A stretch of DNA of 64,000 nucleotides. Source: Chloroflexota bacterium (GTDB lineage Bacteria; Chloroflexota; Anaerolineae; Anaerolineales; Villigracilaceae). Below, one piece after another: positions 19,968 through 53,928 of the stretch. The notes beneath the pieces are model-generated. The model ran no database searches, was not told where the DNA came from, and worked only from the letters and a program-made list of their open reading frames with translations. Within the stretch, counting starts at the first letter, position 1. Each line of letters opens with the position of its first letter. The stretch is taken from the NCBI GenBank assembly GCA_016191845.1, contig JACPVF010000014.1, positions 1 through 64,000 on the forward strand, given 5' to 3'. Position numbers and translations under genes: made by a program.

Positions 19968-21170
19968 TTATTGCCCCGGCCAGCCGATCTGTCCCTGGCC
20001 CTCCCGCACGGCCCAATAGATGAGTCCGCCCCAATTCCAGGAATGTTGGTATTGGGGATTGTCCACATGATTGGCATCATCCATGCGCCGCAAGGTCAGG
20101 TTGTGATCCCAATAGGCATCTGGTGTTCCATCGCCATTGGTATCCGCGGCGGTGGCTGGTGGCAGGCCATTGACCTCGGAGGGCGGAATCTCCCCTCCGT
20201 TGGAATGAGGCCGCCATTCATAGCCTACAATCTCCTTGTGGCCGGTACCGCCGCCGCAGTTATATCCACCGCCTCCAGCGGGTCCCGGCACGCATTCCTT
20301 GATGGCCTCATATTCAAGGTAATGCACCTCCCAAAACAGTTTATACGGGGTACGCCCATCCCCAACGAACAGGGGCATGTCTGTAGGCAATTCCTCCAGG
20401 CCGGCAATGGTCCCCGCCAATGGACCGGCTCCCACGCTTGGGTGGGAGGGAACCTCCCATTGCACCAGGGTCGGGGTGCCGCTGTCTCCCTGATTGGACA
20501 GGGATAAACTGCCCACCTTCGGCAGGGTGATCATCATCGGACCGGACGGCCGCAGGGTCAGGGTCAGACGCAAATCCTGCCAGTCTCCCTCCTGCGGATT
20601 GCCCGGCGACCCACCTCCATAGGGTAGATAGTCCACCTCGCCCGAACCGGAGGAAGTCGGAGTGCCGCCATTGCGCAATGCCGTCGGCCAGCGCACCAGG
20701 GTCACGGGGTAAGGCCGCACATCCAGGAAGGTCTCCGGAAAGGAGACACGCGCGCTGACCTCCCATTCGGTGTTGGTGCAGGTGATCCCACCCCCGCCCA
20801 CGGAGAAGATGGTGCAGGGATGCTGCGGCCCCGATGCCTCCAGGGTGCAAGGCATGTCATCCACCGCATCCCCACCGGATTCAACTGCCTGCCCGGTGCA
20901 GTTATCAACCCAAATCGGGATGGCATCGCAGGTGCCGGCCTCCGGGTCATAGGCGGTGACCTGATAGACCAGGTGCTCTCCTGGCGTGCAGGTTCCGCCC
21001 TCGCCGCTGCCACCACCCTCCCCGCCCCCTCCTCCTCCCATCGTGCACACGATGCTTCCGTCCGGTTGAAAATTGCAGGTAGGTGCCCCCGATTGGGCCC
21101 GTGCATTCCTGAATTGGAACAGGATCAGGGTCAATAGAATGCCCAGGGCAAGGATCAGGGAGCGCTTCAC
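19968..21170 (-). CDS. Secreted Gly/Cys-rich protein of the pilus region
   Basis: 400 aa. A signal peptide (residues 1-25, ending 'NARA') leads to a Cys-containing mature protein. It has a poly-Gly stretch at ~45-60 ('GGGGGGEGGGSGEGG') and a late 'ADTNGDGTPDAYWDHN', which looks like a calcium-binding DxNGDGxxD loop. The start overlaps the stop of the upstream gene (ATGA). It is the last but one gene of the unit with three TadE-like proteins. It may be an extracellular adhesin or pilus-associated protein; no known family is recognised. Confidence 0.65.
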   Translation of the reverse strand: MKRSLILALGILLTLILFQFRNARAQSGAPTCNFQPDGSIVCTMGGGGGGEGGGSGEGGTCTPGEHLVYQVTAYDPEAGTCDAIPIWVDNCTGQAVESGGDAVDDMPCTLEASGPQHPCTIFSVGGGGITCTNTEWEVSARVSFPETFLDVRPYPVTLVRWPTALRNGGTPTSSGSGEVDYLPYGGGSPGNPQEGDWQDLRLTLTLRPSGPMMITLPKVGSLSLSNQGDSGTPTLVQWEVPSHPSVGAGPLAGTIAGLEELPTDMPLFVGDGRTPYKLFWEVHYLEYEAIKECVPGPAGGGGYNCGGGTGHKEIVGYEWRPHSNGGEIPPSEVNGLPPATAADTNGDGTPDAYWDHNLTLRRMDDANHVDNPQYQHSWNWGGLIYWAVREGQGQIGWPGQ

Positions 21171-22174
21171 GGCTGGCCTCCTTCGGCGCCGTCAGACAGC
21201 CCATCCAGAATGGTCTGTTTCTCGTATTCGCTGGTCATGTCCTGCCAGCCCTGCGGCGGAGGTTGCATGGTCAGGCCATAGGTGTTTTGCAGCCAAATTG
21301 CATCCCAGGGACGAGAGTCATACAGGCTGGCCATGGTCAGGCGGTCACGCGCGTTGGCAGTCAGGTCCGTGATCGGTTGCCAGGGATCCGTTTGTGTTCC
21401 CAGCCAGACCCATTCCCCCTCGCCCAGATATCCAAACAGCAGGAAGGAACGCATGGGAACGGCGGAGGCTGTATACACGTGATCGAAGAGAGAGTAGACG
21501 ATGCGCGTGTTGATGGCGTCCTCGGCCACCAGGCACACCACGGGATAATCACCTCCCCAGGTGTTCAGGCGGTTGCCCACCACGGTCGAGGTGCGGAAAC
21601 AACCGCGCAGACCATATGCCACGGCCGGCTTGCCCTCCTCCGTCAGACGCCACTCGGTGAAATAGGGGTTGGTGGGGATGAAGCTGACCGGCACCCCCAG
21701 GGGCCCCTGGTCGGATGGAATATTCACTTCCTGCAGGGCCCGCATGGGCATTCGCGAGAAACCCAGCATCTCTGTCGCCTCAGCGCGACTATAACCCTCG
21801 CGGACTGCCAGGGCCCAGGCGACTGTTTTCTCCAGTCCCTGGTAGACGCAGGCGGGCTGAATGATCTGATAGGTCTCGCTCACATAAGATGGGACAAGCG
21901 TCCAATCGCCTGAGTCGGTTGGGCAGCCTGCGGGGATTTGCTCCTCCACCAGCGAGGGAGTCGGTGGGATGACCTCCGTTGGAAGTGAGACGGCCAGGGG
22001 AGCCGCATGCACGTCTCGCCACAACCACCATTGATTGGACAGGGCGATGAATACAGCCAGGAGCAGCATGGCCAGGATGGCGCCAGCCAGGACCGCATAG
22101 GCGCGCGGCTGGCGGCGACCGGCCAGGTCCCGAAAGGTAAGATTTTCCAGGACTATGGTCCAAATTTTTTTCAT
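21167..22174 (-). CDS. Membrane-anchored extracellular protein of the pilus region
   Basis: 335 aa from the ATG at 22174 (GGAG upstream). One TM segment (residues ~28-48) follows a short cytoplasmic basic stretch. The remaining ~285 residues would be outside. They contain several Cys and 'AVREGYSRAEATEMLGFSRM', and no recognised domain. It lies 13 bases downstream of a TadE-like gene and overlaps the next gene by ATGA, so it belongs to the Tad-like operon. Confidence 0.6.
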   Translation of the reverse strand: MKKIWTIVLENLTFRDLAGRRQPRAYAVLAGAILAMLLLAVFIALSNQWWLWRDVHAAPLAVSLPTEVIPPTPSLVEEQIPAGCPTDSGDWTLVPSYVSETYQIIQPACVYQGLEKTVAWALAVREGYSRAEATEMLGFSRMPMRALQEVNIPSDQGPLGVPVSFIPTNPYFTEWRLTEEGKPAVAYGLRGCFRTSTVVGNRLNTWGGDYPVVCLVAEDAINTRIVYSLFDHVYTASAVPMRSFLLFGYLGEGEWVWLGTQTDPWQPITDLTANARDRLTMASLYDSRPWDAIWLQNTYGLTMQPPPQGWQDMTSEYEKQTILDGLSDGAEGGQP

Positions 22175-22187
22175 CGAAGACTCCACT

Positions 22188-22604
22188 TCATTGATCGCCG
22201 CGGGTGACGCCATGCGCCAGATAGCCAATGGCGCGCACCGTGACCCAGCGGGCGGGTAGCAGGTAACCGGCGGAACGGGTCTCGGCCGTCACCAGGCAGG
22301 CCGGTCTTCCCTGATGGCGTCCACAGGAGACCGAGAGCAGCCGGGCCTGGGCCGGTCGTTGGGTGTTGAAATAATCTGCGGCAATGACATCGCCACCCGC
22401 GGTGGCCGTGATCGTCCCGTCCGGGAGGACGGTGATCTCCTGCGCCCCGGCGTGGGCGGCCAGATCCGCGGCCGCCACGGTCTCCATAACGCGGGCATTG
22501 GTCAGCATGTAGTCCAGGATGCCCAGCAGGAACACGGCCATCAGGGGCAGCAGGATGGCAAAGAGCAGGATGGATTGTCCGCGTTCACTGCGTCGAGCTT
22601 TCAT
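22188..22604 (-). CDS. TadE/TadG-like pseudopilin
   Basis: 138 aa. The N-terminal motif 'SERGQSILLFAILLPLMAVF' is the TadE signature: a basic start, then RGQ followed by a long hydrophobic helix. TadE/F proteins are minor pilins or pseudopilins processed by a TadV-type peptidase, and two such peptidases are encoded at 7479 and 10507. The start overlaps the stop of the next TadE-like gene (ATGA). Confidence 0.75.
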   Translation of the reverse strand: MKARRSERGQSILLFAILLPLMAVFLLGILDYMLTNARVMETVAAADLAAHAGAQEITVLPDGTITATAGGDVIAADYFNTQRPAQARLLSVSCGRHQGRPACLVTAETRSAGYLLPARWVTVRAIGYLAHGVTRGDQ

Positions 22605-23020
22605 TGCCACCTGGCCTTCCAGGTTTCGGAGCGGGAGACGAACCATTCATGCCCCCAATCCGCCTGTTCCGATCCCAGTAGAGCCTGGAACAGGGAGGGA
22701 ACCCAATAAGAGACCTGACATGCCCCCGCCAGGCCGGGTCCTGCAGGCGGCGAGACCTGCACACGATATTGCACGCCATAGGTTCCGGACCAGTCCGCAT
22801 CCAGGGTCTGCCAGGCGGCGCGGAGCGCGTTTTGCCGGGCGTGGGCCGGGTCAGGGGATTGGGACAGGAACTGCGAACAGGCATAGGCTGCCGCCGTGGA
22901 TGCAGTACGCGCGCGGTGCATGGGAATCCAGGACAACAGGCCAAAGGCCATCAAGACCGCGAGCAGGGCAAACAGGGCGGTTTCGGGCATGGCCTGTCCG
23001 CGTTCGTACCTGCGCTTCAT
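22601..23020 (-). CDS. TadE-like pseudopilin
   Basis: 139 aa from the ATG at 23020 (GGAGG upstream), overlapping the upstream gene by ATGA. The N-terminus 'YERGQAMPETALFALLAVLM' shows RGQ..xE and a hydrophobic helix, as in TadE. The Glu shortly after the processing site is the classical +5-type pilin Glu. The longer open frame on this strand is an artefact of overlapping reading frames. Confidence 0.75.
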   Translation of the reverse strand: MKRRYERGQAMPETALFALLAVLMAFGLLSWIPMHRARTASTAAAYACSQFLSQSPDPAHARQNALRAAWQTLDADWSGTYGVQYRVQVSPPAGPGLAGACQVSYWVPSLFQALLGSEQADWGHEWFVSRSETWKARWQ

Positions 23021-23409
23021 TCGATGCCTCCTGCCGCGGGCGGACCGGGGTAGAAGCGCCACAAGCGGAAAAAGACCGCGGCGCGCTGGGCCTCCGCCAG
23101 GCGGATCCCGAACACCCAGGCGCGCGAGTCCTCCACCGAGATCCGGGAACGGACCTGGCGCGGGCCTTCTTGCCCGGTTTGAATGCGGTCGGTGAGATCC
23201 GGCCACAGATTGGAGGCGTGCGCGGTTTCGACCATCGGGCGGTTGTACGATCCGCCGGCCACCCCGCTGACGAACACCCCCCAGTCCACAGCGGCAGCTC
23301 GGAAGGCATAGAAGGCGGCCAGGGTCATCCCAAACAACAGCAGGATCAGGGGTGGGATCATCAGGGCGAACTCGGCCATGGCCTGTCCACGCTCCCTTCG
23401 GCGGGACAT
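23017..23409 (-). CDS. TadE-like pseudopilin
   Basis: 130 aa. 'RERGQAMAEFALMIPPLILL' is a canonical TadE N-terminus with Glu. A globular C-terminal part follows ('DLTDRIQTGQEGPRQV'). It directly abuts the Flp pilin stop, overlaps the next TadE-like gene and forms part of the pilus operon. Confidence 0.8.
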   Translation of the reverse strand: MSRRRERGQAMAEFALMIPPLILLLFGMTLAAFYAFRAAAVDWGVFVSGVAGGSYNRPMVETAHASNLWPDLTDRIQTGQEGPRQVRSRISVEDSRAWVFGIRLAEAQRAAVFFRLWRFYPGPPAAGGIE

Positions 23410-23589
23410 CTAGCCACCCCGCGCGAGGCGCAGCGCTTCGATGCCGGCCTCGAAGGCAGCCTGTAGTTCGTTGCGGTAGCGGGAGATCACAGCAATGGCC
23501 ACCACCCCCACCGCCCCCAGGATCAGGGCGTACTCGGCAAAGTCCTGGCCGTCCTCCTCGCAAATGAAACGTTTCAACAACTTGAGCAT
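23410..23589 (-). CDS. Flp/TadA-type major pilin
   Basis: 59 aa with AAGGAG before the ATG at 23589. 'EEDGQDFAEYALILGAVGVV' is the Flp pilin processing and helix motif (G followed by Q-D-F-AEYAL). It is the usual size for an unprocessed Flp subunit. Cleavage after Gly is expected from the A24 peptidases of this element. A hairpin upstream (23617-23638) separates it from the LCP gene, allowing independent high expression. Confidence 0.88.
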   Translation of the reverse strand: MLKLLKRFICEEDGQDFAEYALILGAVGVVAIAVISRYRNELQAAFEAGIEALRLARGG

Positions 23590-23610
23590 GGGTTTCTCCT
23601 TGTTCGAATC

Positions 23611-23638
23611 AAAATCGGCTGGCAGTGTTCTGCCAGCC
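23611..23638 (-). terminator. Hairpin between LCP and Flp genes
   Basis: GGCTGGCA (23617-23624) pairs with TGCCAGCC (23631-23638), followed on the minus strand by GATTTTGATT. It is a likely terminator or attenuator after the LCP gene. Confidence 0.65.
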
Positions 23639-23704
23639 GGGATGATACAAAACCGCCTGTCCGGGTGTGAAGGCCGTGTCGCTTGCAACAAAACAGTGGG
23701 GAGG

Positions 23705-25156
23705 TTATGGCAACCTATCGGCCCAGTCCAACCCAATTCGAATCTCGATGTCCACCCCCTCCTCCCCGCCGGTCTGCAGGACCAGGTGGTCCCCTGTCAC
23801 CCCGAACAGTTCGATCAGATAGCGCCAGGCATATATCTTGGGCGCATACAAGACCAATTTGCTCCGTTCCAGCACCTCATTTGAGGAGGCAACCTCCACC
23901 ACCTGCAGGCCTCGGGAGGACAGGGTTTCAGCAGTCCGCTGACCCAGCCCGGGGAGGCCGGTGGTGTTGACCACCCGCAGGCGCGCCCCATCGGCCAGGG
24001 CCAGGGAGAGGGGTTCCCCCTGAGCTTGTGGGTGCAGCGGTCCACCGGGCAGGAAGAGTTCATCCCGCAGGATGCGGATCGCATCCGGGTGGGGCCTCAA
24101 CACGCTGGAGGGAATTCCGTTCAGGGGAACCGTGGCAAAGGAGACCATGCCCTCATCGATGACACCCTGGCGAATGTTTCCTGCAGGGATTTCCTGCGCC
24201 AGTGCGGCCAGCTTCACGGCCTCCTCCAGGGACAGATTGGTGTGGATGCCGGCTGAAAAGGCTTGATACAACTGCGGGGCCTGCAACAAGAGTTGGGGAA
24301 AGTAGGCCGGGTCGAGCACCTTGTCCCGCACGGCCCAGACCACCTTCTGCTGGCGTCTGGCGCGGCCGAAGTCCCCACCGCTGCACCCCTGGGACTCATC
24401 CCGGCAGCGTGCATATGCCAGGGCGCGCCTTCCATCCAGATGGCGCATGCCGCAGCAGGTCAGCACGAAATGGTCCTTTCCCGAGCCGAGCGGATCCAGT
24501 TTCAACTTTTCATCGGAATAGAGGTCGATCCCGCCGATCCGGTCGATGACGGAGACAAAGGTGTCGAAATCAACCTGGACATAGTAGTGGATCGGCAGGC
24601 CGATCAACTGGGTCACCGCCTGCATGGCCAGGCCGGGGCCGCCGCCCGGCAAGCGGGCAGCCTCCCCAAGGGTCCAGGCCGTGTTGATACGGCTGTAGCC
24701 AAAGCCGGGGATGTTCACCCACAGATCGCGCGGGATGGACAGCATCCCTGCCGTCCGGGTCAGTGGATCAACACTGAGCAGCAGGATCGTATCGGTGCAG
24801 TTCGGGCACCCCTCGCCGCTGTTCTCCCCACCCCGCAGTCCGAAGAAGACGAAGGTAATGCGGCTGGCCCCATCCCAGGAAGGAGGCGTTGCCTCTGGCA
24901 GGGCAGGCATGGCCTCGTCTTCTTCTATTATTCCCGGTATCCCTGCCATAGGGGGTGGGTACGGAGCCTCCAGGAGGTCCGGCCTCTCTCTGCTGCAATA
25001 GGCGGGCGGAATGCCCGGCAAGGCGGTTACCTGCCAGCAGGCCACACCCCAACGCGTCAGCAGGAACAGGGCTATGGCAACAGCCAACGCACATCCCCAA
25101 AAGAGGAACATCCCTTGGAGATGTCCTGTCTGCTTCTTATCGGATGTCTGCATCAT
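23705..25156 (-). CDS. LytR-CpsA-Psr (LCP) family protein with LytR_C domain
   Basis: 483 aa. An N-terminal TM segment (about 17-37) is followed by an extracellular LCP core (about 90-330). The core shows 'SIPRDLWVNIPGFGYSRINT', 'YYVQVDFDTFVSVIDRIGGID', 'HLDGRRALAYARCRDES' and 'GDFGRARRQQKVV'. The Arg/Asp pattern fits the polyprenyl-phosphate binding site. A LytR_C domain (~395-480, 'LRVVNTTGLPGLGQRTAETL') ends the protein. LCP enzymes attach glycopolymers to peptidoglycan from undecaprenyl carriers. In this operon it may attach a surface polymer for the pilus. Confidence 0.85.
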   Translation of the reverse strand: MMQTSDKKQTGHLQGMFLFWGCALAVAIALFLLTRWGVACWQVTALPGIPPAYCSRERPDLLEAPYPPPMAGIPGIIEEDEAMPALPEATPPSWDGASRITFVFFGLRGGENSGEGCPNCTDTILLLSVDPLTRTAGMLSIPRDLWVNIPGFGYSRINTAWTLGEAARLPGGGPGLAMQAVTQLIGLPIHYYVQVDFDTFVSVIDRIGGIDLYSDEKLKLDPLGSGKDHFVLTCCGMRHLDGRRALAYARCRDESQGCSGGDFGRARRQQKVVWAVRDKVLDPAYFPQLLLQAPQLYQAFSAGIHTNLSLEEAVKLAALAQEIPAGNIRQGVIDEGMVSFATVPLNGIPSSVLRPHPDAIRILRDELFLPGGPLHPQAQGEPLSLALADGARLRVVNTTGLPGLGQRTAETLSSRGLQVVEVASSNEVLERSKLVLYAPKIYAWRYLIELFGVTGDHLVLQTGGEEGVDIEIRIGLDWADRLP

Positions 25157-25164
25157 GTCCCCGC

Positions 25165-26049
25165 CTACATCAAGCCCGCGCCCAGGAAGGGAGCCAGGAT
25201 GGACAGTACCAGCCCCAGCACCGCCATCACCCCGAACAGTCCGGCCCGCTGGCGCACCAGGGCGGCGCGGGCTTCGGTCAGTTCCACCACCGTGCGGTGA
25301 ACGGATTCCTGCAGGCTTTGCACGCTGGCCAGGATGGGGCGGTTATTGGCGAAGAAATCCTGGATGTCGCGCAGGAAGAGTGTGGCTTCCACGTCGGCGG
25401 GATCCGGCAGGTGGGCGCGCGTGACCTCCACGGCCTTGGAGAAGTCATCCACTTCCATGCGCGCCACCAACAGACCCAGCAGGTTGCAAAACGGTCCGCC
25501 CACAGCCGAGGTACGACGCAGCGCCTCCTGCACCCCCACTCCGGAGGAAAGCAGCGCGCCCAGCACGGACAGGCCGGTCAGCATGTTGTTGCGCAAGGCT
25601 TCGGCCCGTTTGCGAGCCAGGCTCCGCAGGCGCGCATGGGGACGGCGCAGACCCAACAGGATGAAGATCGCAGCCACCACAGGTGCAGCCGCGATCATGT
25701 TCAGGGCCGCCAGGGCGCCGGCCAGGAGGCCGCCCACCAGCAGAAAGGCGGAGAAATCGCGCAGGGCGGCGGCGTAGAAATCCCCGGGCGTGTCATACGG
25801 ATACCCCGCCCGGCGGAGTCCCCCCACCACATCCGCCAGATCGCGCGCCCGGGCCGCGTCGAAGCGCGCCGGCCAGATCGCCACAAGCAGCGCTTCCCAG
25901 GTCGAACGCTGTTTCCCGCCGGTCCCTTCGGAAGGGAAGGACATCAATCGCTGGCGGCCGATATCTCCCAACGCAGACTGGAAGGCGGTCATCAGTTCAA
26001 AGCCCAGCACACTCAGGCTGAGCGCGCCGAGGAAAGCCAGAAGGGTCAT
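25165..26049 (-). CDS. Type II secretion F-domain (TadC-like) membrane protein
   Basis: 294 aa from the ATG at 26049 (AGGAG upstream; ATGA overlap with the gene above). TM segments lie near residues 2-20, 100-135 and at the C-terminus. The cytoplasmic helices include 'VGVQEALRRTSAVGGPFCNL' and 'LPDPADVEATLFLRDIQDFF'. With the TadB-like protein at 2252-3184 it could form the pilus inner-membrane platform. No TadA ATPase gene accompanies it, which is unusual for a Tad operon. Confidence 0.65.
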   Translation of the reverse strand: MTLLAFLGALSLSVLGFELMTAFQSALGDIGRQRLMSFPSEGTGGKQRSTWEALLVAIWPARFDAARARDLADVVGGLRRAGYPYDTPGDFYAAALRDFSAFLLVGGLLAGALAALNMIAAAPVVAAIFILLGLRRPHARLRSLARKRAEALRNNMLTGLSVLGALLSSGVGVQEALRRTSAVGGPFCNLLGLLVARMEVDDFSKAVEVTRAHLPDPADVEATLFLRDIQDFFANNRPILASVQSLQESVHRTVVELTEARAALVRQRAGLFGVMAVLGLVLSILAPFLGAGLM

Positions 26050-27173
26050 GAAGGGTCTCCTGTGGAAAGATCGAACTGGAAGTCTAGCAGCTTCTGAAGC
26101 TGGGTTTCGCCGGGCTGTCGCCCGCGAAAACGCTTGCTGAACAGGGCCCGTCGCAGGGCGGCCATGTGCTGCTCGGAGCGCAGGACGCCATGCGGTGGGC
26201 GCGGCTCGGCATGGGACAGCGCGCCGCTGCCGGACTCCCAGGCGGTCCCGCCGAATTGCGGCGGCCATAGAGGGTACGCACAGGGATCCCAGTCCGGCAG
26301 GCGGCCCGTCTTCCAGGCGCGATGCCAGCGCCAGAGCGCCTCGAACCTCGGCCCCCACAGACCCCAGACCAGATCCAATTGCAAAGGTTCGTCCCGCAGC
26401 AGGTCCAGGGTCTCGGCACAGTGATGACAAACCGGGACAGCATTTTCGGGCCGCGCGTAGCGCCATTGAATCTCGGGCGGCGCCCCGTGCACAGGCTTCA
26501 GGATCGGGTGCCAGGAGGCCGGTTGCCCACAGCGCATGCAGTGGCTGGGAAATTCATGCCGCCAGGGAACGCCCGCCACCGAGGCCGCCACCAGTTCGTC
26601 CAGGTAGGGGGCTTCGGCCTGCAGCACCGAGTGGGAGAGCTTCACCGCCCCCTCGGGCAGGTTCCACTCGTCTGAAAAGTCCAGGAGGAAGCCGGCCGAG
26701 GAGACGATCTGCCCGCGTTCCCAGACGGAAAACCGTTTGCGCTGAACCTCGGGCCGCACCTCCGCGCCGTGCGCCTCGCGGATGCGGCGGAGGTCGGCCA
26801 CGGCCTCGGCCAGCAGGGCGAACAACAGATTGTCCATGCGCAGGCTGTCATCCAGCATCCCCTGCTGCGGCAGATCAGGGGAAACGGAGAGGATGGGCTG
26901 CAGGCAGGGTCGATAATCCACCGTCGGCCCGCACTCGACCACATAACGGCAGGCCGGCAGATTCACGAACTTCCAGGGGGAGAGCACCTGATCGAAGCGC
27001 ACCTGCCCTTTGCCATCCAGGGCGACCATCCGCATGGGGGGACAGAAGGCGGTATGGAAGGTGCGGGGTGCGTCGTTCGGATAAATAAAAGCCAGGAGGT
27101 CTTCGTCCAACTTGTGCATGAACATGGCGCCCAGGGCGCGTTGTCCGGATGTAATCAGCAAGTGCAGTCTCAT
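26046..27173 (-). CDS. Unknown protein with a zinc-ribbon
   Basis: 375 aa, soluble. A CxxC...CxxC pair, 'HCMRCGQ' (about 217) and 'VCHHCAE' (about 250), is a likely zinc ribbon. A helical segment 'NLLFALLAEAVADLRRIREA' lies at ~115-135, and Trp-rich stretches follow ('LWGPRFEALWRWHRAWKTG'). It overlaps both neighbours by ATGA, tying it to the TadC-like protein downstream and the initiator-like protein upstream. Role unknown. Confidence 0.6.
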   Translation of the reverse strand: MRLHLLITSGQRALGAMFMHKLDEDLLAFIYPNDAPRTFHTAFCPPMRMVALDGKGQVRFDQVLSPWKFVNLPACRYVVECGPTVDYRPCLQPILSVSPDLPQQGMLDDSLRMDNLLFALLAEAVADLRRIREAHGAEVRPEVQRKRFSVWERGQIVSSAGFLLDFSDEWNLPEGAVKLSHSVLQAEAPYLDELVAASVAGVPWRHEFPSHCMRCGQPASWHPILKPVHGAPPEIQWRYARPENAVPVCHHCAETLDLLRDEPLQLDLVWGLWGPRFEALWRWHRAWKTGRLPDWDPCAYPLWPPQFGGTAWESGSGALSHAEPRPPHGVLRSEQHMAALRRALFSKRFRGRQPGETQLQKLLDFQFDLSTGDPS

Positions 27174-28552
27174 GATGGTTCACAGGCTCCTTCGCCAAAG
27201 AGGATGGCCCGCACGATCGGCAGGCGTAAATTGCCGGCCCCCATAACCTTATTCCAAGCGGGAGCCAGCGGATGATTTAACGAGAGAGGCAGGGCATAGC
27301 CCTGTTTGGGGGTGGCATCGATCAACTCCAGCAGTTCGGCCGGCGGCAGGTCGGCCAGCTGGCGGAAGATCCCGCGCGCTTCGCGCAGCGGGTGTTCGCG
27401 CAGGCGACTAAGGGCATAGCCCAGCGGGTCGGACAGGTTCCCACTCCTGGGACTGGCCGCATACAACACCCAGGAGACCAGGGCATGCACGGAAGCCTGC
27501 GCCTCCAGAAGTTCACGCTGCACCCGGGGGTGCACCTCGTTTTGCTGCAGGAGAGCCTCGAGTTCCCAGAAGGGCGGCGCCGCCTCCGCCACCTGAACAG
27601 CGTGTTGGGGGGCGGAAGTGTTTTTTCGATTGGTGTTTACGGGGTGTTTAAAAGAGTTAAAACCGGTCCCATCCGCGTCCGCCATACGACTCCCACCTGC
27701 GCCCGCTATGCCTTCCACCCGCGTCCGTATATGAATTCCAGGCGCGTCTGCCATATGCGTCCCATCCGCGTCCGTTGTATGGCTTCCATCCGCGTCCAGC
27801 GGCTCGTCCAGAAGGACGCGAAAGACGCGCGGCATGCTGTCCACGCGCAAATCGAGATCCAGGCCGGAATCGGGCACATCCACCTCCTGCAGAAAACGGG
27901 CCAGATCCCCGCCGCGTTGCTGGGTGGTCCACTGAGGATGCAGCCAGGCCTGCACGGTCTTGTAACGATTGGAACCGGCCAGTTCCGCCATCTCACGGTA
28001 GCCTCCCCGAAAGGTCACCCGCTCGCGCCGTTCCCCGGTGCGTGCATTCACGAAGGCCATGTCGCGCGCCACGGTAATCAGCCAGGCCTGGGCGGGGGTC
28101 AGGCCGAAGGCGGGGATGGTGTGGGTGATGAAGAAGTGCGGGATGTGGATGTCGCCCAGCGAGTCGATCACCCGCCGATGCAGGGACTGGGCCAGAGAGT
28201 CCAGGTTCGCAGAGTAAGCCGGTCCGGCCGCAACGCGCACGATGTCCATGACCGTATTCAAGGGCAAGGCCTGTGGAGTGAGCCCGGTGGAATCAAGCAA
28301 GGATCCCAGGTCCATATTCAGGAGTTCCTGCAGGGCTGCGGCCAAAGTCAATCCTTCCGCAAGCCTGCCTTGAAGATGGGATTGGATCGCGGCAGAGTCC
28401 ATGCGGGTCAGGCGGGGTGTCATATGCACCCGATAGCGAATCGGCGCCTGATGGGGACGCCCATCGCGGCCGCGCCGAAACCGGCGGTAACCGATTGGAT
28501 CGACGCGTTGCACCAGACCGTCCAGGCAATTTTGGGTGGCCGCGTCTTTCAA
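27170..28552 (-). CDS. Initiator-like protein, downstream part after an in-frame amber codon
   Basis: 460 aa if read from the TTG at 28552; the first ATG (28423) would remove a conserved-looking wing. It is in the same frame as the upstream DnaA-domain-I gene, separated by one TAG (28561-28559) and two sense codons. 'VQRVDPIGYRRFRRGRDGRP' and 'IRYRVHMTPRLT' read like the continuation of the winged helix that begins just before the stop. Later parts include a helical region (~90-180), a repetitive Asp/Gly/His linker (~250-300) and a C-terminal helical domain. There is no ribosome site before the TTG. It is either a pseudogene part or a readthrough product. Confidence 0.6.
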   Translation of the reverse strand: MKDAATQNCLDGLVQRVDPIGYRRFRRGRDGRPHQAPIRYRVHMTPRLTRMDSAAIQSHLQGRLAEGLTLAAALQELLNMDLGSLLDSTGLTPQALPLNTVMDIVRVAAGPAYSANLDSLAQSLHRRVIDSLGDIHIPHFFITHTIPAFGLTPAQAWLITVARDMAFVNARTGERRERVTFRGGYREMAELAGSNRYKTVQAWLHPQWTTQQRGGDLARFLQEVDVPDSGLDLDLRVDSMPRVFRVLLDEPLDADGSHTTDADGTHMADAPGIHIRTRVEGIAGAGGSRMADADGTGFNSFKHPVNTNRKNTSAPQHAVQVAEAAPPFWELEALLQQNEVHPRVQRELLEAQASVHALVSWVLYAASPRSGNLSDPLGYALSRLREHPLREARGIFRQLADLPPAELLELIDATPKQGYALPLSLNHPLAPAWNKVMGAGNLRLPIVRAILFGEGACEPS

Positions 28553-28558
28553 CAGACG

Positions 28559-29074
28559 CTAGAAGGCGCCATGACTCAGGGCGCTGAAACGCAGCACCTC
28601 CCGGCTGTGCAGGGGCTGTCCCTCATTGCCCTTTTGATCCTGTCTTCTCCAGGCTGCCTGGTGAAAGCCGATATACAGCCAGATGGCCTTGGGACCGATC
28701 TCCCGGCCCAGCCGCCTCAGATAACCCTTCACCACCACCTGCCTGTGCGGCTGGACGATGCGGTCGTAGTCCAGCCAGGCCACCGGCTCAACAGACAATT
28801 GTGGCTCCTCCTCCTCAGGCTCCTCCGTTTCAGCGCCGGAGACGAACCGCACGGTCACCGCCCGCTCCAGGTGATCGTTTAGCCAATCTTGAATCGGTGC
28901 AGTCAATCGCGCCTCAAGCCAGTCACGGGCATAGGCGTTTTGCGCGCGCACGGTGAGGAGCCCCCCTTCCAGGGAGAGGGCCTGTGTATCCCGCACCCAG
29001 GTTTCGAAGGCGGCACGCGGCAGGTCCGACTGAAGATGGGCCAGGACCGGCTGCCAAATCTGCCCGGTGGTCAT
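28559..29074 (-). CDS. DnaA domain I fused to a winged-helix, ending at a premature amber stop
   Basis: 171 aa from the ATG at 29074 (GGGAGG upstream). Residues ~5-78 are a DnaA domain I: 'WQPVLAHLQSDLPRAAFETW' and 'NAYARDWLEARL'. They are close to residues 7-76 of the host DnaA at 52504 ('NAYARDWLESRL'). An acidic linker ('ETEEPEEEEPQL') is followed by a wHTH beginning 'IGPKAIWLYIGFHQAAW'. The frame ends in TAG at 28559-28561 and simply continues in the next ORF. DnaA domain I binds DnaB and other partners, so the full protein would be a replication initiator or helicase recruiter without an AAA+ domain. Confidence 0.8.
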   Translation of the reverse strand: MTTGQIWQPVLAHLQSDLPRAAFETWVRDTQALSLEGGLLTVRAQNAYARDWLEARLTAPIQDWLNDHLERAVTVRFVSGAETEEPEEEEPQLSVEPVAWLDYDRIVQPHRQVVVKGYLRRLGREIGPKAIWLYIGFHQAAWRRQDQKGNEGQPLHSREVLRFSALSHGAF

Positions 29075-29264: not shown

Positions 29265-29792
29265 TCATTGGGCTCCCTCCCGTGATGGCGGGAGGGGGAG
29301 TTCGTGGCTCGCCGGGGTAAGCCGCAGCCGCCCCTCGCGATACTCCTGCAATCCAAAATCCAACAGGGCGGAGACCAGTTCCCCGATTGGCACGTTCAGG
29401 CCCTCCTCGCCGGCCAGGGCAGATAATTCCCCTTTGAGTTCCTGTGGAAAACGACGCCAGGTGGTGATCACCCGCCAGCGCGCTTCGGGGCGCTTGATTC
29501 TGGATGGGCCGGGATCATTCCCAATGGGAAGCAGGGTCATGTGCAGGCGACGCGGGTGAGGACGCGGATGGAGGTCAAAGTCTCCGCGCGCATAACAGTC
29601 CAGGGCGTGTTCGATCAACCTGCGCGCCACCTCGCCCACAGGGACGAGCAGGTCGGCTGCTAAGGTCTTCACCTCCAAGGCCAGGTTCGGATTCACCCCA
29701 CGGTACACGGCCTTGTCCTTCCCGTGCCGCTTCTCCCAACGGCGGTTTCGTCGGCGCGGCATGGCTTCGATAGGATCTCGCCTGCGTTTCAT
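29265..29792 (-). CDS. ParA partner with two RHH-like units (putative)
   Basis: 175 aa; the start overlaps the ParA stop (ATGA). A basic N-terminus ('KRRRDPIEAMPRRRNRRWEK') leads to two similar segments: 'LALEVKTLAADLLVPVGEVA...ALDCYARGDFDL' and 'LKGELSALAGEEGLNVPIGE...LLDFGLQEYREGRLRL'. Each has the strand-helix-helix spacing of ribbon-helix-helix proteins. RHH proteins often serve as the centromere-binding partner of ParA in plasmids. The partition role is inferred from operon position. Confidence 0.5.
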   Translation of the reverse strand: MKRRRDPIEAMPRRRNRRWEKRHGKDKAVYRGVNPNLALEVKTLAADLLVPVGEVARRLIEHALDCYARGDFDLHPRPHPRRLHMTLLPIGNDPGPSRIKRPEARWRVITTWRRFPQELKGELSALAGEEGLNVPIGELVSALLDFGLQEYREGRLRLTPASHELPLPPSREGAQ

Positions 29793-30571
29793 CCCGCCCC
29801 CTCGAACTTCAATACATGTTTCGTCAGGGCCTGGTATTCCTTGGCGGCGCGGCAGAGGGGATCCACCTCGAAGATGGTCCGGCCCAGCGCAGCGCTTTCC
29901 CGGAGCAGGGTGGCGCGGTGGATGGGCGGCAGCAGGCTGGCTTCGAAGCGTTCGCGCAGATTCTCCAGGGTGGCCTGGCTCTCGCGGGCCTGCTCGTCAT
30001 AGAAGGTGGGCAGGATGCCCAACAGGCTGCCGCGCCATTTCTTTTGCTCCTGCAGGGCACTCAGCTGCCGCAGCATCTTGCCGAGGCCATCCACGGAAAG
30101 GAACTCCGTGGCAGTCGGCACGATCACCAGGTCCGCCGCCCAAACTGCCCGTTCCTGGATGCCGCCCACGCTGGGGGCCGTGTCGAAGAGCATGTAATCC
30201 AGACCATCTTTGAAAAAGCGACTGATCGACTGGCGGATGGCGGAAATGGGCTTATCCTGTGCGTTCAGGACCGTTTGGGCAGACAGGGTCTGCCGGTCGC
30301 CGGGCAGCAGGTACAGCCCATCCCGCCCGGTAAACCGCACCCAGGATTGGACAAAGCCGGCCTCCTGCGGAGATGAGCCCATGGTTAGCAGGTGGAAGGC
30401 GCCCGGTTCGGGGTTGCGTCCCAGGTCCGTCGCAGCTTGCCCCTGTGGGTCCAGGTCGATCAGCAGGACCCGCTTGCCCCTTTGACTCAAACCATGCGCC
30501 AGGGAGACGGCAGTGGTGGTCTTACCCACACCACCCTTCTGACTGGCGATGCAGATCACTTTGGCGGACAT
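29789..30571 (-). CDS. parA: ParA family partition ATPase
   Basis: 260 aa. The deviant Walker A 'KGGVGKTTTA' (residues ~12-21), 'LIDLDPQGQAATDLG' and 'YMLFDTAPSVGG' identify a ParA/Soj ATPase without an N-terminal HTH. It would move or segregate the element when it is extrachromosomal, or position the transfer machinery. It shares an operon with the RHH-like protein and a 49-aa membrane protein whose stop overlaps its start. Confidence 0.93.
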   Translation of the reverse strand: MSAKVICIASQKGGVGKTTTAVSLAHGLSQRGKRVLLIDLDPQGQAATDLGRNPEPGAFHLLTMGSSPQEAGFVQSWVRFTGRDGLYLLPGDRQTLSAQTVLNAQDKPISAIRQSISRFFKDGLDYMLFDTAPSVGGIQERAVWAADLVIVPTATEFLSVDGLGKMLRQLSALQEQKKWRGSLLGILPTFYDEQARESQATLENLRERFEASLLPPIHRATLLRESAALGRTIFEVDPLCRAAKEYQALTKHVLKFEGAG

Positions 30572-33032: not shown

Positions 33033-34736
33033 ATGGCAAAGAGAGCCGTGATCTACGTTCGAACTTCCTCCGAACAACAAGGGGAAAAGAGCAGTCCTGC
33101 CGAGCAGGAGGCAGATTGCCGCTGGTTTGCAGAAAGACAGGGCCTGGTCGTTGTAAACGTGTATCGCGACATCGAACGATATCGTGTCGGAAAAAAATGG
33201 GTGGAACCGTCCGGCGTACGGTATGACCGTCCCGGATTAACGGCGATGCTGCGGGATGCCGCCGATGATCAATTTGATGTCATTCTTGCCTGGCGGGAGG
33301 ATCGTTTGTATCGCGGCATGCGTGCCATGCTCCTGGTATTGGAAACAATCCAGCAACACAACCTTACCATCCTGCTTGCCCAGGAGACGTTCGACCCTGC
33401 CTTGGCCCCGCTCAAAGCCTGGCTGGCGCAGGTGGAATTGGAGAACATCAAGGAACGCATGACCATGGGGGTCAAGGCACGCCTCAAGGCCGGCAAGGCG
33501 AATTCGGGACAGGATCGGTATGGCTACCGCCGGGTAGGGGAGCGCATTGAAGTGGTCCCGGAAGAAGCAGAATGGGTACGGCAGATTTTTGCCTGGTACA
33601 ACGAACGTATTCCCTTCAAGGAAATGCGCCAACGGTTGATTGCAGCAAATGCTCCTCAGAAGATTGCTACAAAACCGCGAAAGATCACCTGGGCAATCAG
33701 CAGTATTTTAGGCATCCTGCAAGGAGCCGAAGAATATGCAATGGGCAAGAAGTTCCAAAGTAGGGAAGGGGATCGGTTCGAAATGGATATTAAGCCAATT
33801 TTGGACGTTCAAACATATCAAGAGTATTTGCGGGTCAAACCAAAGCCGCCAGTGCCGGCACCGGCAAGCATCAAACAATATGCCCTAATTCAAGGCTTGC
33901 TTTATTGCGCTTGTGAGTATCGATGGCAACCTCGCGGTACGACCAGCCATTATCGAATGCCCGATGGGAATTGGTTGAAAAGGCGGACTATCAAAGGCGT
34001 CTATTTTTGTCCATGCAAACATGAAGAAATCCGCTCCCCGGAATGTCCTCGTACCATCCCGCGAATCGATGCAGATCGTGAAGTTTGGAGACAGGTTTGC
34101 AACGCCATAAATCATCCTGAAATTCTATTGGATAGAGCCCGGGATTTGGTTGCTGAACTCATGAACGAAGTAGGCAACCAAGATGTAAATCGTGAACATA
34201 TCCAAAAGGAATTGGAGAACCTTTTTTTGAATAGGCAATGGATTATCACCCAGGCTCGCATTGGCAACATTTCAGAAGATGAAATGGAACGCACACTCAA
34301 TGCATACTCCCAGCAGGAGGTGGATCTGAAAAGCGAATTATCTGCCATGCAAAAAAGAATCGATGAACAGCTGTTGGTGGACTGGGAAGCCAAAGTGATG
34401 GAATTTCTTGCTGACTTACAGGTTGGTATCCAGGCATTGAGTGATATGTCTGTGAACGAAGAGGAGTGGGTTAAATCGTTTGAACTGAAAAAACATATCG
34501 TTCAATTGCTGGTGGAGAGGGTAACGATTGATATTAACCGGCAGTTGACCGTGACCATCCATTTGGACCTGATGGAATTGCTTGAAGAAAGTCTGAAGAA
34601 AAGCGGGGGTTCTGGCTCCTCAGGCTCATGGCCTGCCAGTGGCCGCCCTGCAAAATCGGATTCTCATCGCAAGCCGGCAATGTTTGCCGGTCGAGCAAGA
34701 TACATATCGATTAGCACAATTTGGAATAACAAATAA
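33033..34736 (+). CDS. Large serine recombinase 1
   Basis: 567 aa. The N-terminal resolvase/invertase catalytic domain (1-150) has 'AVIYVRTSSEQQ' with the nucleophile Ser in RxS (S12 of VRTS) and 'AWREDRLYRG' with the conserved Arg residues. A recombinase domain follows (about 160-260). A zinc-ribbon has Cys pairs 'CAC' (~291) and 'CPC' plus 'CPR'. A coiled-coil (380-440) is of the kind that controls directionality in phage integrases. It should catalyse att-site recombination of the element. It is followed 15 bases later by a paralogue. Confidence 0.93.
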   Translation: MAKRAVIYVRTSSEQQGEKSSPAEQEADCRWFAERQGLVVVNVYRDIERYRVGKKWVEPSGVRYDRPGLTAMLRDAADDQFDVILAWREDRLYRGMRAMLLVLETIQQHNLTILLAQETFDPALAPLKAWLAQVELENIKERMTMGVKARLKAGKANSGQDRYGYRRVGERIEVVPEEAEWVRQIFAWYNERIPFKEMRQRLIAANAPQKIATKPRKITWAISSILGILQGAEEYAMGKKFQSREGDRFEMDIKPILDVQTYQEYLRVKPKPPVPAPASIKQYALIQGLLYCACEYRWQPRGTTSHYRMPDGNWLKRRTIKGVYFCPCKHEEIRSPECPRTIPRIDADREVWRQVCNAINHPEILLDRARDLVAELMNEVGNQDVNREHIQKELENLFLNRQWIITQARIGNISEDEMERTLNAYSQQEVDLKSELSAMQKRIDEQLLVDWEAKVMEFLADLQVGIQALSDMSVNEEEWVKSFELKKHIVQLLVERVTIDINRQLTVTIHLDLMELLEESLKKSGGSGSSGSWPASGRPAKSDSHRKPAMFAGRARYISISTIWNNK

Positions 34737-34751
34737 TCTGAGGAGACAACA

Positions 34752-36380
34752 ATGAATAACCGTGCGGTCATTTACGTTCGTACCTCGTCCGAACATCAAG
34801 GAGAAAAATCAAGCCCGACCGAACAGGAGGCGGATTGCCGGCAATTGGCGGCGGATAAGGGTTTGGTGATTGTCAATGTCTATCGTGACATTGAGAAGTA
34901 TCGTGTACGGACCAAATTAGTCGAACCTTCTGGTACACGTTCTGATCGTCCCGGGTTGCTTGATATGTTGAGTGCTGCTGCGCGAAATGAGTTCGATATC
35001 ATCCTGGCTTGGCGTGAAGACAGACTTTATCGCGGAATGCGTGCCATGCTACTTGTATTGGAAACAATTCAAGAGCACAAGGTGACAGTCATGCTAGCTA
35101 GAGAAACCTTTGACCCCAAAATTGCCCCCTTACGCGCGTGGGTGGCTCAAATGGAATTGGATGGCATGAAAGAGCGAATGACGATGGGTGTGAAAGCTCG
35201 TTTAAAATCAGGAAAGGCAAATACGGGACAGGACCGTTATGGTTATCAGCGTATTGACGACCATATTGTGATAGTCGAGGAAGAGGCATATTGGGTTCGG
35301 AAGATATTTGAGTGGTATCTTAATGGTTGTCGTCTCATGGAAATTCGTGATCGATTGATTGCCGGTGGCGCACCCCAAAAAGGGAGCAGCATTCCAAGAA
35401 AGATCCATTGGGCCCGATCCAGTATTCAGGCAATTCTTAAATCAGCAAAGGAATATGCATATGGATTGAAAATTCAGTCCAGAAAAGGGGAACTTTTTGA
35501 AATACCGGTGGATCCAATTATCGATGTTACAACTTTTGAGAGTTTCACAGAATTGAGAACTCGGAAGAAAACTTATCCTGCGCGTCGTGTACACCACGAT
35601 TACCTGCTTGGTGGAATACTCAAATGTGAATGTGGCAATAAGTGGGGCGCAAGAACTCAAAAGACCAGAAAGAATCGGAAAGGTGTGCTGGTCGAGCGAA
35701 AAACATTAACGGGCGTTTACTATTGTCGTCAGAATCACAAAGACCTTGTTTCGCCCGATTGTCCAAGACATATTGGTGCCAAGAAGGCTGATGAAGAAGC
35801 CTGGGGGAAGATTTGTCGCGCTCTCGACAAGCCTGAATACCTGCTTTCACAAGCAATAAGTTTAGTTAATCAACTTCGTGCCAATGCATCTAATCTTCAT
35901 GAAGAAAGAGACAGAATCGAAAAACAGCTTCAGAGGATCAATCATGACCGCCAATGGGTAATTACACAAGCAAGAGAGGGAAAATTTACAAACAATGATA
36001 TGGAACAACAATTGGCAACTTTGACGTTGCAGGAGATCAGCTATAAGCACAACCTGTCTGCATTGGGTCAGACAATAAACATCAACGCGCTCGATAACTG
36101 GGAAGAGAAATTTGAGGAGTACCTTGCGGATTTACAAGCCGGCGTCGTGGAGTTAAAAGAATCCGCTCCTCAAAATGAAGAGGAGCGGCATAGATTGTTC
36201 TTACTTAAAAAGCAGGTTGTGGATACCTTGGTTGAGGAAGTAAAGATCAAAAGAAACCGAGAACTTGAAGTTGTGATGCGTTTAGATTTACTAAAGATCC
36301 TCGATCAAGATGCAGGTTTAGAGAACCTTACCCCTGCGGCATATTCCAGGCGGGGCGAAATTTATACCCGTAAACGATAA
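34752..36380 (+). CDS. Large serine recombinase 2
   Basis: 542 aa, paralogue of recombinase 1. It has the same 'AVIYVRTSSEHQGEKSS' catalytic start, 'AWREDRLYRG', a recombinase domain and a Cys-containing ribbon ('CECGNKW', 'YYCRQNH', 'CPRHI'). A coiled coil lies near 370-430. It has AGGAG before the ATG at 34752 and lies in the same operon. Its 3' end overlaps the 3' end of the DUF35 gene by 53 bases on the other strand, so the right junction of the element is probably here. Tandem pairs may divide integration and excision, or act as a heteromer. Confidence 0.93.
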   Translation: MNNRAVIYVRTSSEHQGEKSSPTEQEADCRQLAADKGLVIVNVYRDIEKYRVRTKLVEPSGTRSDRPGLLDMLSAAARNEFDIILAWREDRLYRGMRAMLLVLETIQEHKVTVMLARETFDPKIAPLRAWVAQMELDGMKERMTMGVKARLKSGKANTGQDRYGYQRIDDHIVIVEEEAYWVRKIFEWYLNGCRLMEIRDRLIAGGAPQKGSSIPRKIHWARSSIQAILKSAKEYAYGLKIQSRKGELFEIPVDPIIDVTTFESFTELRTRKKTYPARRVHHDYLLGGILKCECGNKWGARTQKTRKNRKGVLVERKTLTGVYYCRQNHKDLVSPDCPRHIGAKKADEEAWGKICRALDKPEYLLSQAISLVNQLRANASNLHEERDRIEKQLQRINHDRQWVITQAREGKFTNNDMEQQLATLTLQEISYKHNLSALGQTININALDNWEEKFEEYLADLQAGVVELKESAPQNEEERHRLFLLKKQVVDTLVEEVKIKRNRELEVVMRLDLLKILDQDAGLENLTPAAYSRRGEIYTRKR

Positions 36381-52503: not shown

Positions 52504-53850
52504 ATGAACGCAGAGCAGGCCTGGCAGTCCGTGCTCGGACAGCTTCAAATGGAAATGCCCCGGGCGTCCTTTGACACCTGGGTTCGTGATACACGCCCTG
52601 TCTCCTACGACAAGGGTGTTTTGACCGTGGGTGTGCGCAATGCGTACGCCCGTGATTGGTTGGAGAGCCGCCTGGCCGATACCGTTAGCCGTTTGTTGAT
52701 TGGAATCCTGAACGCGAACGTGACCGTCAACTTCGTGGTCGTCAACGCAGATGAACCCATCCCCACTGCAGCGGACCCCGAGCCTGTTCCTGCTTCGCCG
52801 GAGATGACTCCGCCCGAGCGCACCCGCAGCACCACCCTCAACCCCCGTTATATCTTCGATACCTTCGTGGTCGGCTCCGGCAACCGACTGGCGCACGCCG
52901 CCTGTCAGGCCGTGGCCGAAAAGCCCGCCCGTGCCTATAACCCGCTCTTCCTGTACGGCGGCGTAGGACTCGGCAAAACCCACCTGCTGCACGCCATTGG
53001 CAATTCCTGTATCGCGCGCGGATTGAATGTACTATATGTGTCGTCCGAAGAATTCACCAACGACATGATCAACGCCATCCGCACGCACACCACCCAGGCT
53101 TTCCGCGAGAAATATCGCTCCGCCGACGTGTTGCTGATCGACGACATCCAGTTCATCGCGGGCAAGGAATCCACGCAGGAAGAATTCTTCCACACCTTCA
53201 ACACCCTGCACGGGCAGGACAAGCAGATCATCGTCTCGTCTGATCGACCGCCTAAATCACTGGTCACGCTGGAGGAGCGCCTGCGCTCCCGCTTCGAGTG
53301 GGGCCTCACCGCCGACATCCAGCCGCCTGACCTCGAAACCCGCCTGGCCATCCTGCGCTCGAAGGCCGAGCGCACGGGCCGCCACATCCCCGACGAAGTG
53401 CTCGAGATCGTTGCCCGCCGCGTCCAGTCCAACATTCGCGAACTGGAAGGCGCGCTTAACCGCATCATCGCCTTTGCCGACCTGAGCGGCACCCCCCTGA
53501 CGCCCAAACTGGTCGATCTGGCCCTGGCGGACCTCCTGCCCCAGCGCAGCGACCTGGCCCCTGAGAAGATCATCGAATTGGTGGCCCGCGAATGGCAGAC
53601 CTCTGTCGAGGCTCTGCTCGGACGTGACCGCTCCCAGAAAATCGCCCAGCCGCGACAGGTGGCCATGTACCTCCTGCGCAAGAAAACCGACGCGTCCCTG
53701 CCCCAGATCGGCGAAGCGCTCGGCGGCCGCGACCACACCACGGTCATGTATGCCATTGAGAAGATCGACAACGAAATCAAGATCAAGACCGACCTGCAAA
53801 AACGCATCAGCATGATCGAACAGCAGCTCTACAGCGGAGCCGCAGCCTAA
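52504..53850 (+). CDS. dnaA: Chromosomal replication initiator DnaA
   Basis: 448 aa. Domain I ('AWQSVLGQLQMEMPRASFDTW', residues 6-76), a short linker, AAA+ with Walker A 'GGVGLGKTHLLHAIG' (~152) and 'LLIDDIQFIAGKES', and domain IV with 'GGRDHTTVMYAIEKI'. It opens the origin and loads the replicative helicase. Its domain I is a close relative of the element-borne protein at 28559-29074. GGGAG precedes the ATG. Confidence 0.97.
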   Translation: MNAEQAWQSVLGQLQMEMPRASFDTWVRDTRPVSYDKGVLTVGVRNAYARDWLESRLADTVSRLLIGILNANVTVNFVVVNADEPIPTAADPEPVPASPEMTPPERTRSTTLNPRYIFDTFVVGSGNRLAHAACQAVAEKPARAYNPLFLYGGVGLGKTHLLHAIGNSCIARGLNVLYVSSEEFTNDMINAIRTHTTQAFREKYRSADVLLIDDIQFIAGKESTQEEFFHTFNTLHGQDKQIIVSSDRPPKSLVTLEERLRSRFEWGLTADIQPPDLETRLAILRSKAERTGRHIPDEVLEIVARRVQSNIRELEGALNRIIAFADLSGTPLTPKLVDLALADLLPQRSDLAPEKIIELVAREWQTSVEALLGRDRSQKIAQPRQVAMYLLRKKTDASLPQIGEALGGRDHTTVMYAIEKIDNEIKIKTDLQKRISMIEQQLYSGAAA

Positions 53851-53861
53851 CCGAATTTTCA

Positions 53862-53886
53862 GCCCGCAGTTTTCTGCGGGCTTTTT
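53862..53886 (+). terminator. Rho-independent terminator after dnaA
   Basis: GCCCGCAG pairs with CTGCGGGC over TTTT, followed by TTTTT. Confidence 0.85.
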
Positions 53887-53928
53887 GTTGCCTGCCACCC
53901 ATAGCTGCGGCTATAATTCCCCCCTACC

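Follow-up and report, generated by a model that had tools for sequence, protein, structure and literature searches.

Each ingredient of the gene described here has a known parallel, and the phage lambda O gene, the RepA_N plasmids and the Rickettsia protein DALP are partial parallels of the whole. In lambda, the initiator gene has iterons in its central part and, after them, an A+T-rich tract (excerpted text of PMC7466680). The excerpted text of PMC5703833 describes RepA_N plasmids of the pSK41 family, whose Rep boxes are central in rep and code for a dispensable linker and whose initiators have DnaD-like domains; it places the repeats of the Rep_3 plasmid pSK639 upstream of the gene. DALP is a plasmid-borne protein with a DnaA_N domain at its C-terminus (PMC4316617, in excerpt). 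We have analyzed the first 64,000 nucleotides (nt) of contig JACPVF010000014.1 (assembly GCA_016191845.1; Chloroflexota, Anaerolineales, Villigracilaceae), referred to as the window. It contains a minus-strand gene, here called rep, that joins a DnaA domain I to winged helices and is interrupted by an in-frame TAG. We consider it likely that rep encodes the initiator of an integrated plasmid-like element, that the origin is within rep itself and that domain I recruits the host helicase pathway; the window copy is probably inactive.

Like lambda O, rep has repeats and then an A+T-rich tract in mid-gene; unlike lambda, it has a built-in DnaA domain I. Helicase recruitment in lambda passes through protein P. 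The central position of the repeats is shared with RepA_N genes, and the second winged helix has RepA_N and DnaD entries among its fold matches, but rep differs from them in its two winged helices and its N-terminal DnaA domain I. Likeness to the Rep_3 initiators (RepE of F, Pi of R6K) lies in a repeat spacing of about 22 nt and, more tentatively, in the predicted tandem winged helices, whose weak fold matches are headed by RepE and Pi; the differences are that the repeats of rep are intragenic and that domain I is built in. The Pfam Rep_3, RepA_N and phage O families were matched by none of 42 aligned family members at expectation values (E) up to 1, which separates rep from all three groups and counts against our interpretation. 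In contrast to DALP, the DnaA_N domain of rep is N-terminal (residues 5-66 of the 634 in P0001, the protein translated through the TAG) and sits on a winged-helix, iteron-encoding gene. A putative initiator of Brevibacillus phage SecTim467 has a domain I-like module (a weak structural match, E 0.029). The phage protein family phrog_26369 matches 39 of the 42 members, with P0001 residues 13-77 only aligned to profile positions 278-344 of 347; the module is therefore C-terminal in those proteins. A search of the open-access literature, outside which most subscription journals lie, returned no description of this combination or of this Chloroflexota family.

Results

Reading frame and domain make-up

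The gene begins at ATG 29074, which is preceded by GGGGAGGT. After 171 codons it reaches the TAG, and 462 sense codons then follow in the same frame up to the stop at 27170; the first-pass annotation, made from the window sequence, had already seen that the frame runs on and put it at 460 codons, without naming a strand. The features of the gene, together with host dnaA, are as follows.

27170..29074, minus strand: rep-like initiator gene, interrupted at codon 172 (reading frame and relatives)
28838..29068, minus strand: DnaA domain I (model residues 3-79; Pfam PF11638 at residues 5-66)
28559..28561, minus strand: in-frame TAG at codon 172, private to the window copy (alignment column of relatives)
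28424..28741, minus strand: first winged helix, cut by the TAG (residues 112-217, AlphaFold2 models)
27815..28210, minus strand: second winged helix (residues 289-420, AlphaFold2 models), homologous to part of a protein of the HRD-7 plasmid
27666..27797, minus strand: six degenerate 15-nt repeat cores, putative iterons (family register 24, 24, 23, 22, 24)
27613..27662, minus strand: A+T-rich stretch, putative unwinding element, directly after the repeats (64% A+T vs 37% in the gene)
27197..27562, minus strand: helical C-terminal domain (residues 505-626, model)
52504..53850, plus strand: host dnaA with a related domain I (Pfam)

The DnaA_N match in P0001 (PF11638) had an E of 6.6e-11 and 42.2 bits against a Pfam gathering score of 24.6, and no other Pfam family was matched at E up to 1. 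Host DnaA matched DnaA_N together with the AAA+ domain (Bac_DnaA) and domain IV (Bac_DnaA_C). By Pfam, P0001 has neither of the latter two, so that the domain III AAA+ and the domain IV by which a chromosomal initiator DnaA is recognized are both lacking. Over residues 2-90, rep and host DnaA share 47% identity in domain I, and the domain alignment gives 51%; these two were the only DnaA_N domains found genome-wide. The proposal of the first-pass annotation, a domain I like that of the DnaA at 52504 fused to a winged helix in place of AAA+ and domain IV, is thus borne out, except that it spoke of a single winged helix: the TAG does lie inside one, the first, and the model shows two. Its description of 27170-29074 as replication-initiator-like agrees with the adjoining ParA gene, the intragenic iteron-like array and the likeness to plasmid initiators; a functional meaning of the TAG is not supported. 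Because close relatives (58-67% identical) continue past the TAG codon, most of them full length without a stop, comparison confirms that the gene is real and that the open frame beyond the TAG is not due to chance.

Relatives of rep

A total of 152 genomes of the same family were searched, followed by named GTDB contigs, mostly Anaerolineales or Chloroflexi metagenome-assembled genomes. The same-family search returned relatives of full length that are about 58-67% identical, and further ones at 27-44%; the matches listed include many host dnaA genes, and the counts of relatives are lower bounds. Of 475 loci on GTDB contigs 80 were kept, so the numbers given are minimum values in this respect as well. 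The resulting set comprised 112 rep-bearing loci, equal to 66 distinct genes with the window gene included. Among 54 complete distinct genes (the window gene being read through), 50 encode 618-718 amino acids (aa) and four are shorter (475-528). Some close relatives are cut by contig ends, and broken or short copies occur elsewhere: in L019 a stop of its own falls near aligned residue 519, while L036 and L048 have frames of 275 and 475 codons. DnaA_N was matched by all 42 aligned members at E up to 1, and 22 Pfam families were matched by any member at that threshold.

The winged-helix core matched 26 of 400 genomes of the phylum: 11 of the same family (our own included), three of the same order and 12 elsewhere, the last being partial. 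In three distant winged-helix relatives from other Chloroflexota families, L229, L230 and L234, the domain I match is C-terminal (E 2e-9, 2e-8 and 2e-5). No credible domain I match was found in L225, L227, L228, L231, L232 and L233 among the winged-helix relatives inspected.

Repeat array and A+T-rich stretch inside rep

Direct repeats were present in all nine genes first examined. A systematic scan for copies of a 14-mer, allowing up to 3 mismatches and a spacing of 20-26 nt, found 4-9 copies in 56 of the 66 distinct genes, the window gene included. The spacing was 22-24 nt in 263 of 269 cases and 21 nt in the other six, and the arrays lie between gene nucleotides 1253 and 1627, save in one gene whose start is missing. 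The register 24, 24, 23, 22, 24 is common to nearly all members of the close clade; many distant genes alternate 22 and 23 or hold 22, and the repeated words differ between groups. The window array has six cores in the family register, of which the strict scan finds four and a repeat finder five; it was also detected with Tandem Repeats Finder (TRF). The first-pass annotation had missed this array in the center of the gene. Across 19 close loci, rep contains 105 instances of the consensus word, allowing up to 2 mismatches, against one elsewhere in 400,558 bp.

In the 40 nt that follow the array, A+T content is 0.206 above the gene mean (n = 53), the next highest bin reaching 0.059, and in 46 of the 56 genes the 50-nt window with the highest A+T content begins between -10 and 80 nt from the array end. 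The repeat-coding region coincides with a predicted disordered stretch of the protein (residues 425-497). Codon choice provided the strongest independent test. Codon identity at conserved residues was 0.51-0.56 in domain I, the winged helices (0.52) and the C-domain, but reached 0.80 for the repeats and 0.87 for the A+T element; these values are pooled over 253 overlapping, non-independent pairs of 26 close genes, and the A+T element has only 17 codons. Since codons in these parts are conserved beyond what the protein sequence demands, it is concluded from these alignments that selection acts on the DNA of the repeats and the A+T element.

Repeats at the protein level were considered as the whole cause of the array and rejected. 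The copies occupy more than one reading frame in 54 of the 56 genes, the count in 46 of the 66 genes (window gene included) exceeds that of all 60 synonymous shuffles, and the codons are over-conserved as described. Several results weigh on the other side. The remaining 20 genes do not exceed all of their shuffles: 11 of these have at least four copies, and in them 1 to 11 of 60 shuffles reach the count (5/60 in the same-genus relative L013, 11/60 in L037), and nine, partial genes among them, have three or fewer. All copies share one frame in L037 and L099, and in the close clade only one of the six copies is frame-shifted relative to the others. Fewer than four copies were found in 10 of the 66 genes, of which five are partial, L048 is short, L032 has three copies, and L112, L116 and L117 are complete genes without an array. 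Finally, L225 (1435-3342) has winged helices and repeats with no domain I in its frame. On balance, the array and the A+T-rich stretch appear to form a replication origin inside rep.

Structure models

The AlphaFold2 model of full-length P0001, a check that the first-pass annotation had proposed for the joined protein, has a mean predicted local distance difference test (pLDDT) of 78.4 and shows domain I, two winged helices, the disordered stretch at 425-497 and a helical C-domain. The domain I model matches domain I of Bacillus subtilis DnaA (4tps_B) with Z 14.9 and a root-mean-square deviation (rmsd) of 1.3 over 80 residues, and residues 88-222 of the whole-protein model match Geobacillus primosomal DnaB (5wtn_B, Z 6.8). 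First-pass fold searches were filled by domain I, and residues 92-424 were modeled separately (pLDDT 87, predicted template modeling score 0.85). The best matches of this winged-helix model were iteron-bound RepE54 (Z 6.7) and iteron-bound Pi (Z 6.1), with rmsd 4.2-4.4; both span the two winged helices. For the second winged helix, two RepA_N entries (Z 6.0) tied within 1 Z unit with RepE54 and Pi, followed by another RepA_N entry and DnaD. The resemblance of the predicted core to iteron-bound plasmid initiators is suggestive, with every Z of the winged-helix core below 8 and no significant match from plain Foldseek on the core counting against it.

Domain I and the host replication machinery

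In B. subtilis DnaA, the DnaD interaction that recruits the helicase depends on residues T26, W27 and F49 of domain I, and this surface has been suggested to act in E. coli DnaA as well (PMC10201431, in excerpt); the excerpted text of an earlier review states that no such role of domain I was then known in B. subtilis (PMC5448010). Among 65 aligned rep genes, window included, the first equivalent position is T in 57, the second W in all 65 and the third Y in 64. The same three residues, T, W and Y, occur in the 31 host DnaAs examined. In the host genome, a gene with the DnaB_2 domain, which we take to be that of Firmicutes DnaD and DnaB, adjoins a DnaB helicase gene; DciA had no match in this genome. 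Because the DnaD-binding surface residues are conserved and the host has a DnaD-type gene beside dnaB, it is plausible that domain I recruits the host helicase pathway, with DnaD as probably the most likely route.

The history of the domain was followed in a domain I tree, built on few columns and with long branches, on which the Rep and DnaA labels require four changes, at least three by well-supported branches and four to six in bootstraps. Domain I of the L043 Rep (genome G017) is 91% identical to that of its own host DnaA; its closest winged-helix relatives (60-68%) are 51-69% identical in domain I, the lowest, L051, being itself a long branch. Three Reps of genome G068 each place their own host DnaA first of 31. 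Overall, the own-host DnaA was nearer than the mean of the others in 26 of 36 cases, by an average of 1.84 points, and most Reps show little preference for it. There was no codon-level sign of very recent capture of domain I: the conserved-residue codons of L043 agree at 52% with dnaA of its own genome, G017, vs 58% with that of another genome. Occasional, old re-capture of domain I from host DnaA is the likely reading of this tree and these identities; regular re-capture is unproven.

Relatives on plasmids and viral contigs

The 212-kb circular Leptolinea plasmid of HRD-7 (AP024711) carries a Soj/ParA gene and encodes a distantly related 295-aa protein (BCY19596.1) composed of domain I and the second winged helix; the latter aligns with that of rep by hhalign (probability 97.5, E 7.4e-12, 74 columns). 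The protein thus shares with rep both of these parts and a ParA partner. It differs in its length, in a first winged helix that was not recognized and in that no tandem-repeat array was found inside its gene. On AP024711 the cumulative GC skew is lowest in the 191st 1-kb bin, which lies about 6 kb away from the domain I gene, and peaks almost opposite, at 79 kb; its amplitude was not reached in any of 5000 permutations. A 25-nt repeat array (191453-191541; L171 6423-6511) beside parA, within about 0.5 kb of the skew-minimum bin, is a candidate origin or centromere.

Close relatives were not found in the plasmid and phage records, which gave only matches to the domain I part (six and two records). 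When viral contigs were scanned with the family alignment, 19 loci were returned (L240-L258), all with their match in domain I; two of the three search seeds lie in domain I, and the scan is no unbiased census. The domain is near the C-terminus in 14 of these proteins, near the N-terminus in four (two of them alike) and mid-protein in one. The DnaA Walker (ATPase) motif is absent from all 19 frames, and the eight checked by Pfam all matched DnaA_N. No viral contig with the winged-helix core was confirmed, with one short pattern usable for this purpose. These sequences suggest that borrowing of domain I is not confined to the rep family.

Genomic setting

The genes that recur around rep were compared across 42 flank loci, which include some places twice. 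They are ParA, a 175-aa protein, a 375-aa protein and Tad/LCP-like genes; the 375-aa and 175-aa proteins had no Pfam match at E 0.01. The neighbors in the window are as follows.

26046..27173, minus strand: 375-aa gene, sharing 4 nt with the end of rep (match in 26/42 flank loci)
29265..29792, minus strand: 175-aa protein between parA and rep (match in 29/42 flank loci)
29789..30571, minus strand: ParA ATPase (Pfam AAA_31/CbiA; match in 39/42 flank loci)
33033..34736, plus strand: large serine recombinase 1 (Pfam Resolvase and Recombinase)
34752..36380, plus strand: large serine recombinase 2 (Pfam Resolvase and Recombinase)
19971-26091, minus strand: LCP (Pfam), Flp pilin-like and Tad-like genes, the latter two named by eye (single genes near rep in 9-26/42 flank loci)

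A family B DNA polymerase gene (14901-17276, minus strand) lies on the same contig side as rep, and its homologues are near rep in 4 of the 42 flank loci. On either side of about 36.8-37.0 kb, the right flank matches the same-genus relative L064, and judging by this match the two copies seem to use the same chromosomal neighborhood. For the 14 close-clade copies tabulated with dnaA on the contig (11 genomes), the distance from rep to dnaA was 21.6-33.0 kb in six, 71.7 kb in one and more than 800 kb in seven; a preferred attachment region near dnaA is possible. The GC-skew minimum at 21 kb in the window was set aside as uninformative.

Discussion

The first-pass annotation had described the gene as split by the TAG. 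Homologues without the stop, for which it had suggested looking, exist: codon 172 is a sense codon in 64 of 65 distinct relatives, the remaining one being a partial gene that does not reach it, and all 31 close relatives have one common sense residue there. An amber-suppressor tRNA, for which it had also suggested looking, was not found, with no CTA anticodon among 43 tRNA places of the host genome (99.17% complete), and TAG is the terminator of 8 of the 38 listed window genes. Nor were homologues found that end at the same place with an independently started second gene, one of the outcomes that it had named as refuting it. Programmed read-through, or two proteins from one locus, could draw on the 462 further codons in frame and on a TTG as the third codon after the TAG, ahead of which no Shine-Dalgarno-like stretch was seen by eye; set against the relatives, tRNAs and stop usage, we regard it as ruled out for practical purposes. 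For the same three reasons the TAG is, by comparison with relatives, a private nonsense mutation or a sequencing error in the window copy. If it were a sequencing or assembly error, the copy would be an intact, working initiator. In favor of this, ParA and both recombinases have open frames, and the ratio of nonsynonymous to synonymous differences (pN/pS) against L013 is 0.40 before the TAG, 0.53 between residues 173 and 424, and 0.28 in the C-domain, so that the part after the TAG is still constrained. The repeats point the other way. They keep the register, but with 22 mismatches to the consensus they are more degenerate than those of any other of the 32 close genes (L015 has 20, with its first copy missing, and the next 14); divergence within the array is the highest (3.4 vs 2.87 for the next); and codon identity in the repeats is 0.61, compared with 0.80 among relatives, that of the A+T element being 0.92. 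Two further results qualify the case for decay: the window copy has 78-86 private changes vs 30-53 in L013 (four outgroups), and its iteron decay may come partly from this fast branch; the same comparison gave no clear excess of change confined to the part after the TAG, so that relaxed evolution only after the TAG, which we considered, is not clear. We consider an error unlikely, though not remote. Given a private TAG within the first winged helix and the most degenerate repeats of the 32, the window copy is probably inactive, and from its sequence it is probably an inactivated replicon that survives by integration.

Other readings concern what the family does. The gene might be a chromosomal regulator with a domesticated DnaA domain I, as its integrated state 23 kb from dnaA and the six tabulated copies at 21.6-33.0 kb would suggest; half of the tabulated copies are, however, more than 800 kb away, several genomes have more than one copy, serine recombinases and ParA lie alongside, and a relative is on a circular plasmid, which together make this very improbable. 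Somewhat less remote, though still improbable, is that the repeats are a ParA partition centromere or an autoregulatory operator. ParA and the 175-aa protein adjoin rep, and the array of the HRD-7 plasmid comes just after parA and the next small gene; in the close clade, however, the array is inside rep and not at parA or the rep promoter, the A+T-rich peak of the gene begins at the array end in 46 of 56 genes, and the core resembles, weakly, iteron-bound initiators. For the helicase step, the main alternative is that domain I pairs with host DnaA, by self-association of the two domains I, and draws it to the element instead of binding DnaD or the helicase. E. coli domain I dimerizes, and the Pi and pSC101 RepA initiators contact DnaA (excerpts of PMC5448010 and PMC4980987). 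Sites resembling DnaA boxes are not enriched near rep (0.20 vs 0.29 per kb elsewhere, 30 loci), in a test that is weak, as the same consensus gave one box in 51900-54200 around the start of host dnaA. We hold this pairing to be unlikely, although it deserves more weight than a centromere or a regulator.

An integrated plasmid-like element with its origin inside the initiator gene remains the reading that we prefer, and it would work in two steps. The tandem winged helices would bind the iterons and open the adjacent A+T-rich DNA, as do RepE, Pi and lambda O, an analogy drawn from excerpts of PMC7466680, PMC5703833 and PMC4980987. The DNA coding for the disordered linker of the protein would itself be the iteron array and the A+T-rich unwinding element. 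Domain I would then recruit the helicase-loading pathway of the host, most likely via DnaD.

Conclusions

More tentatively, and with somewhat less than even confidence, we suggest that these genes form an undescribed family of plasmid initiators in the Chloroflexota, a one-gene replicon module made up of a DNA-binding core, an origin encoded in the linker and a helicase-recruiting domain I that has been repeatedly re-captured from the DnaA of the current host. The sequence of a mobile replicon usually tells little about how it matches the helicase loader of a new host. In this family the part that is likely to do the recruiting can be recognized by its kinship to a domain of the host itself, and the question could be tested by domain I swaps between relatives. 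To our knowledge, few replicating vectors are available for Chloroflexota, and the gene-internal origin is a candidate genetic tool for this phylum. If true, repeated re-capture of domain I would keep the element matched to the replication machinery of each new host.

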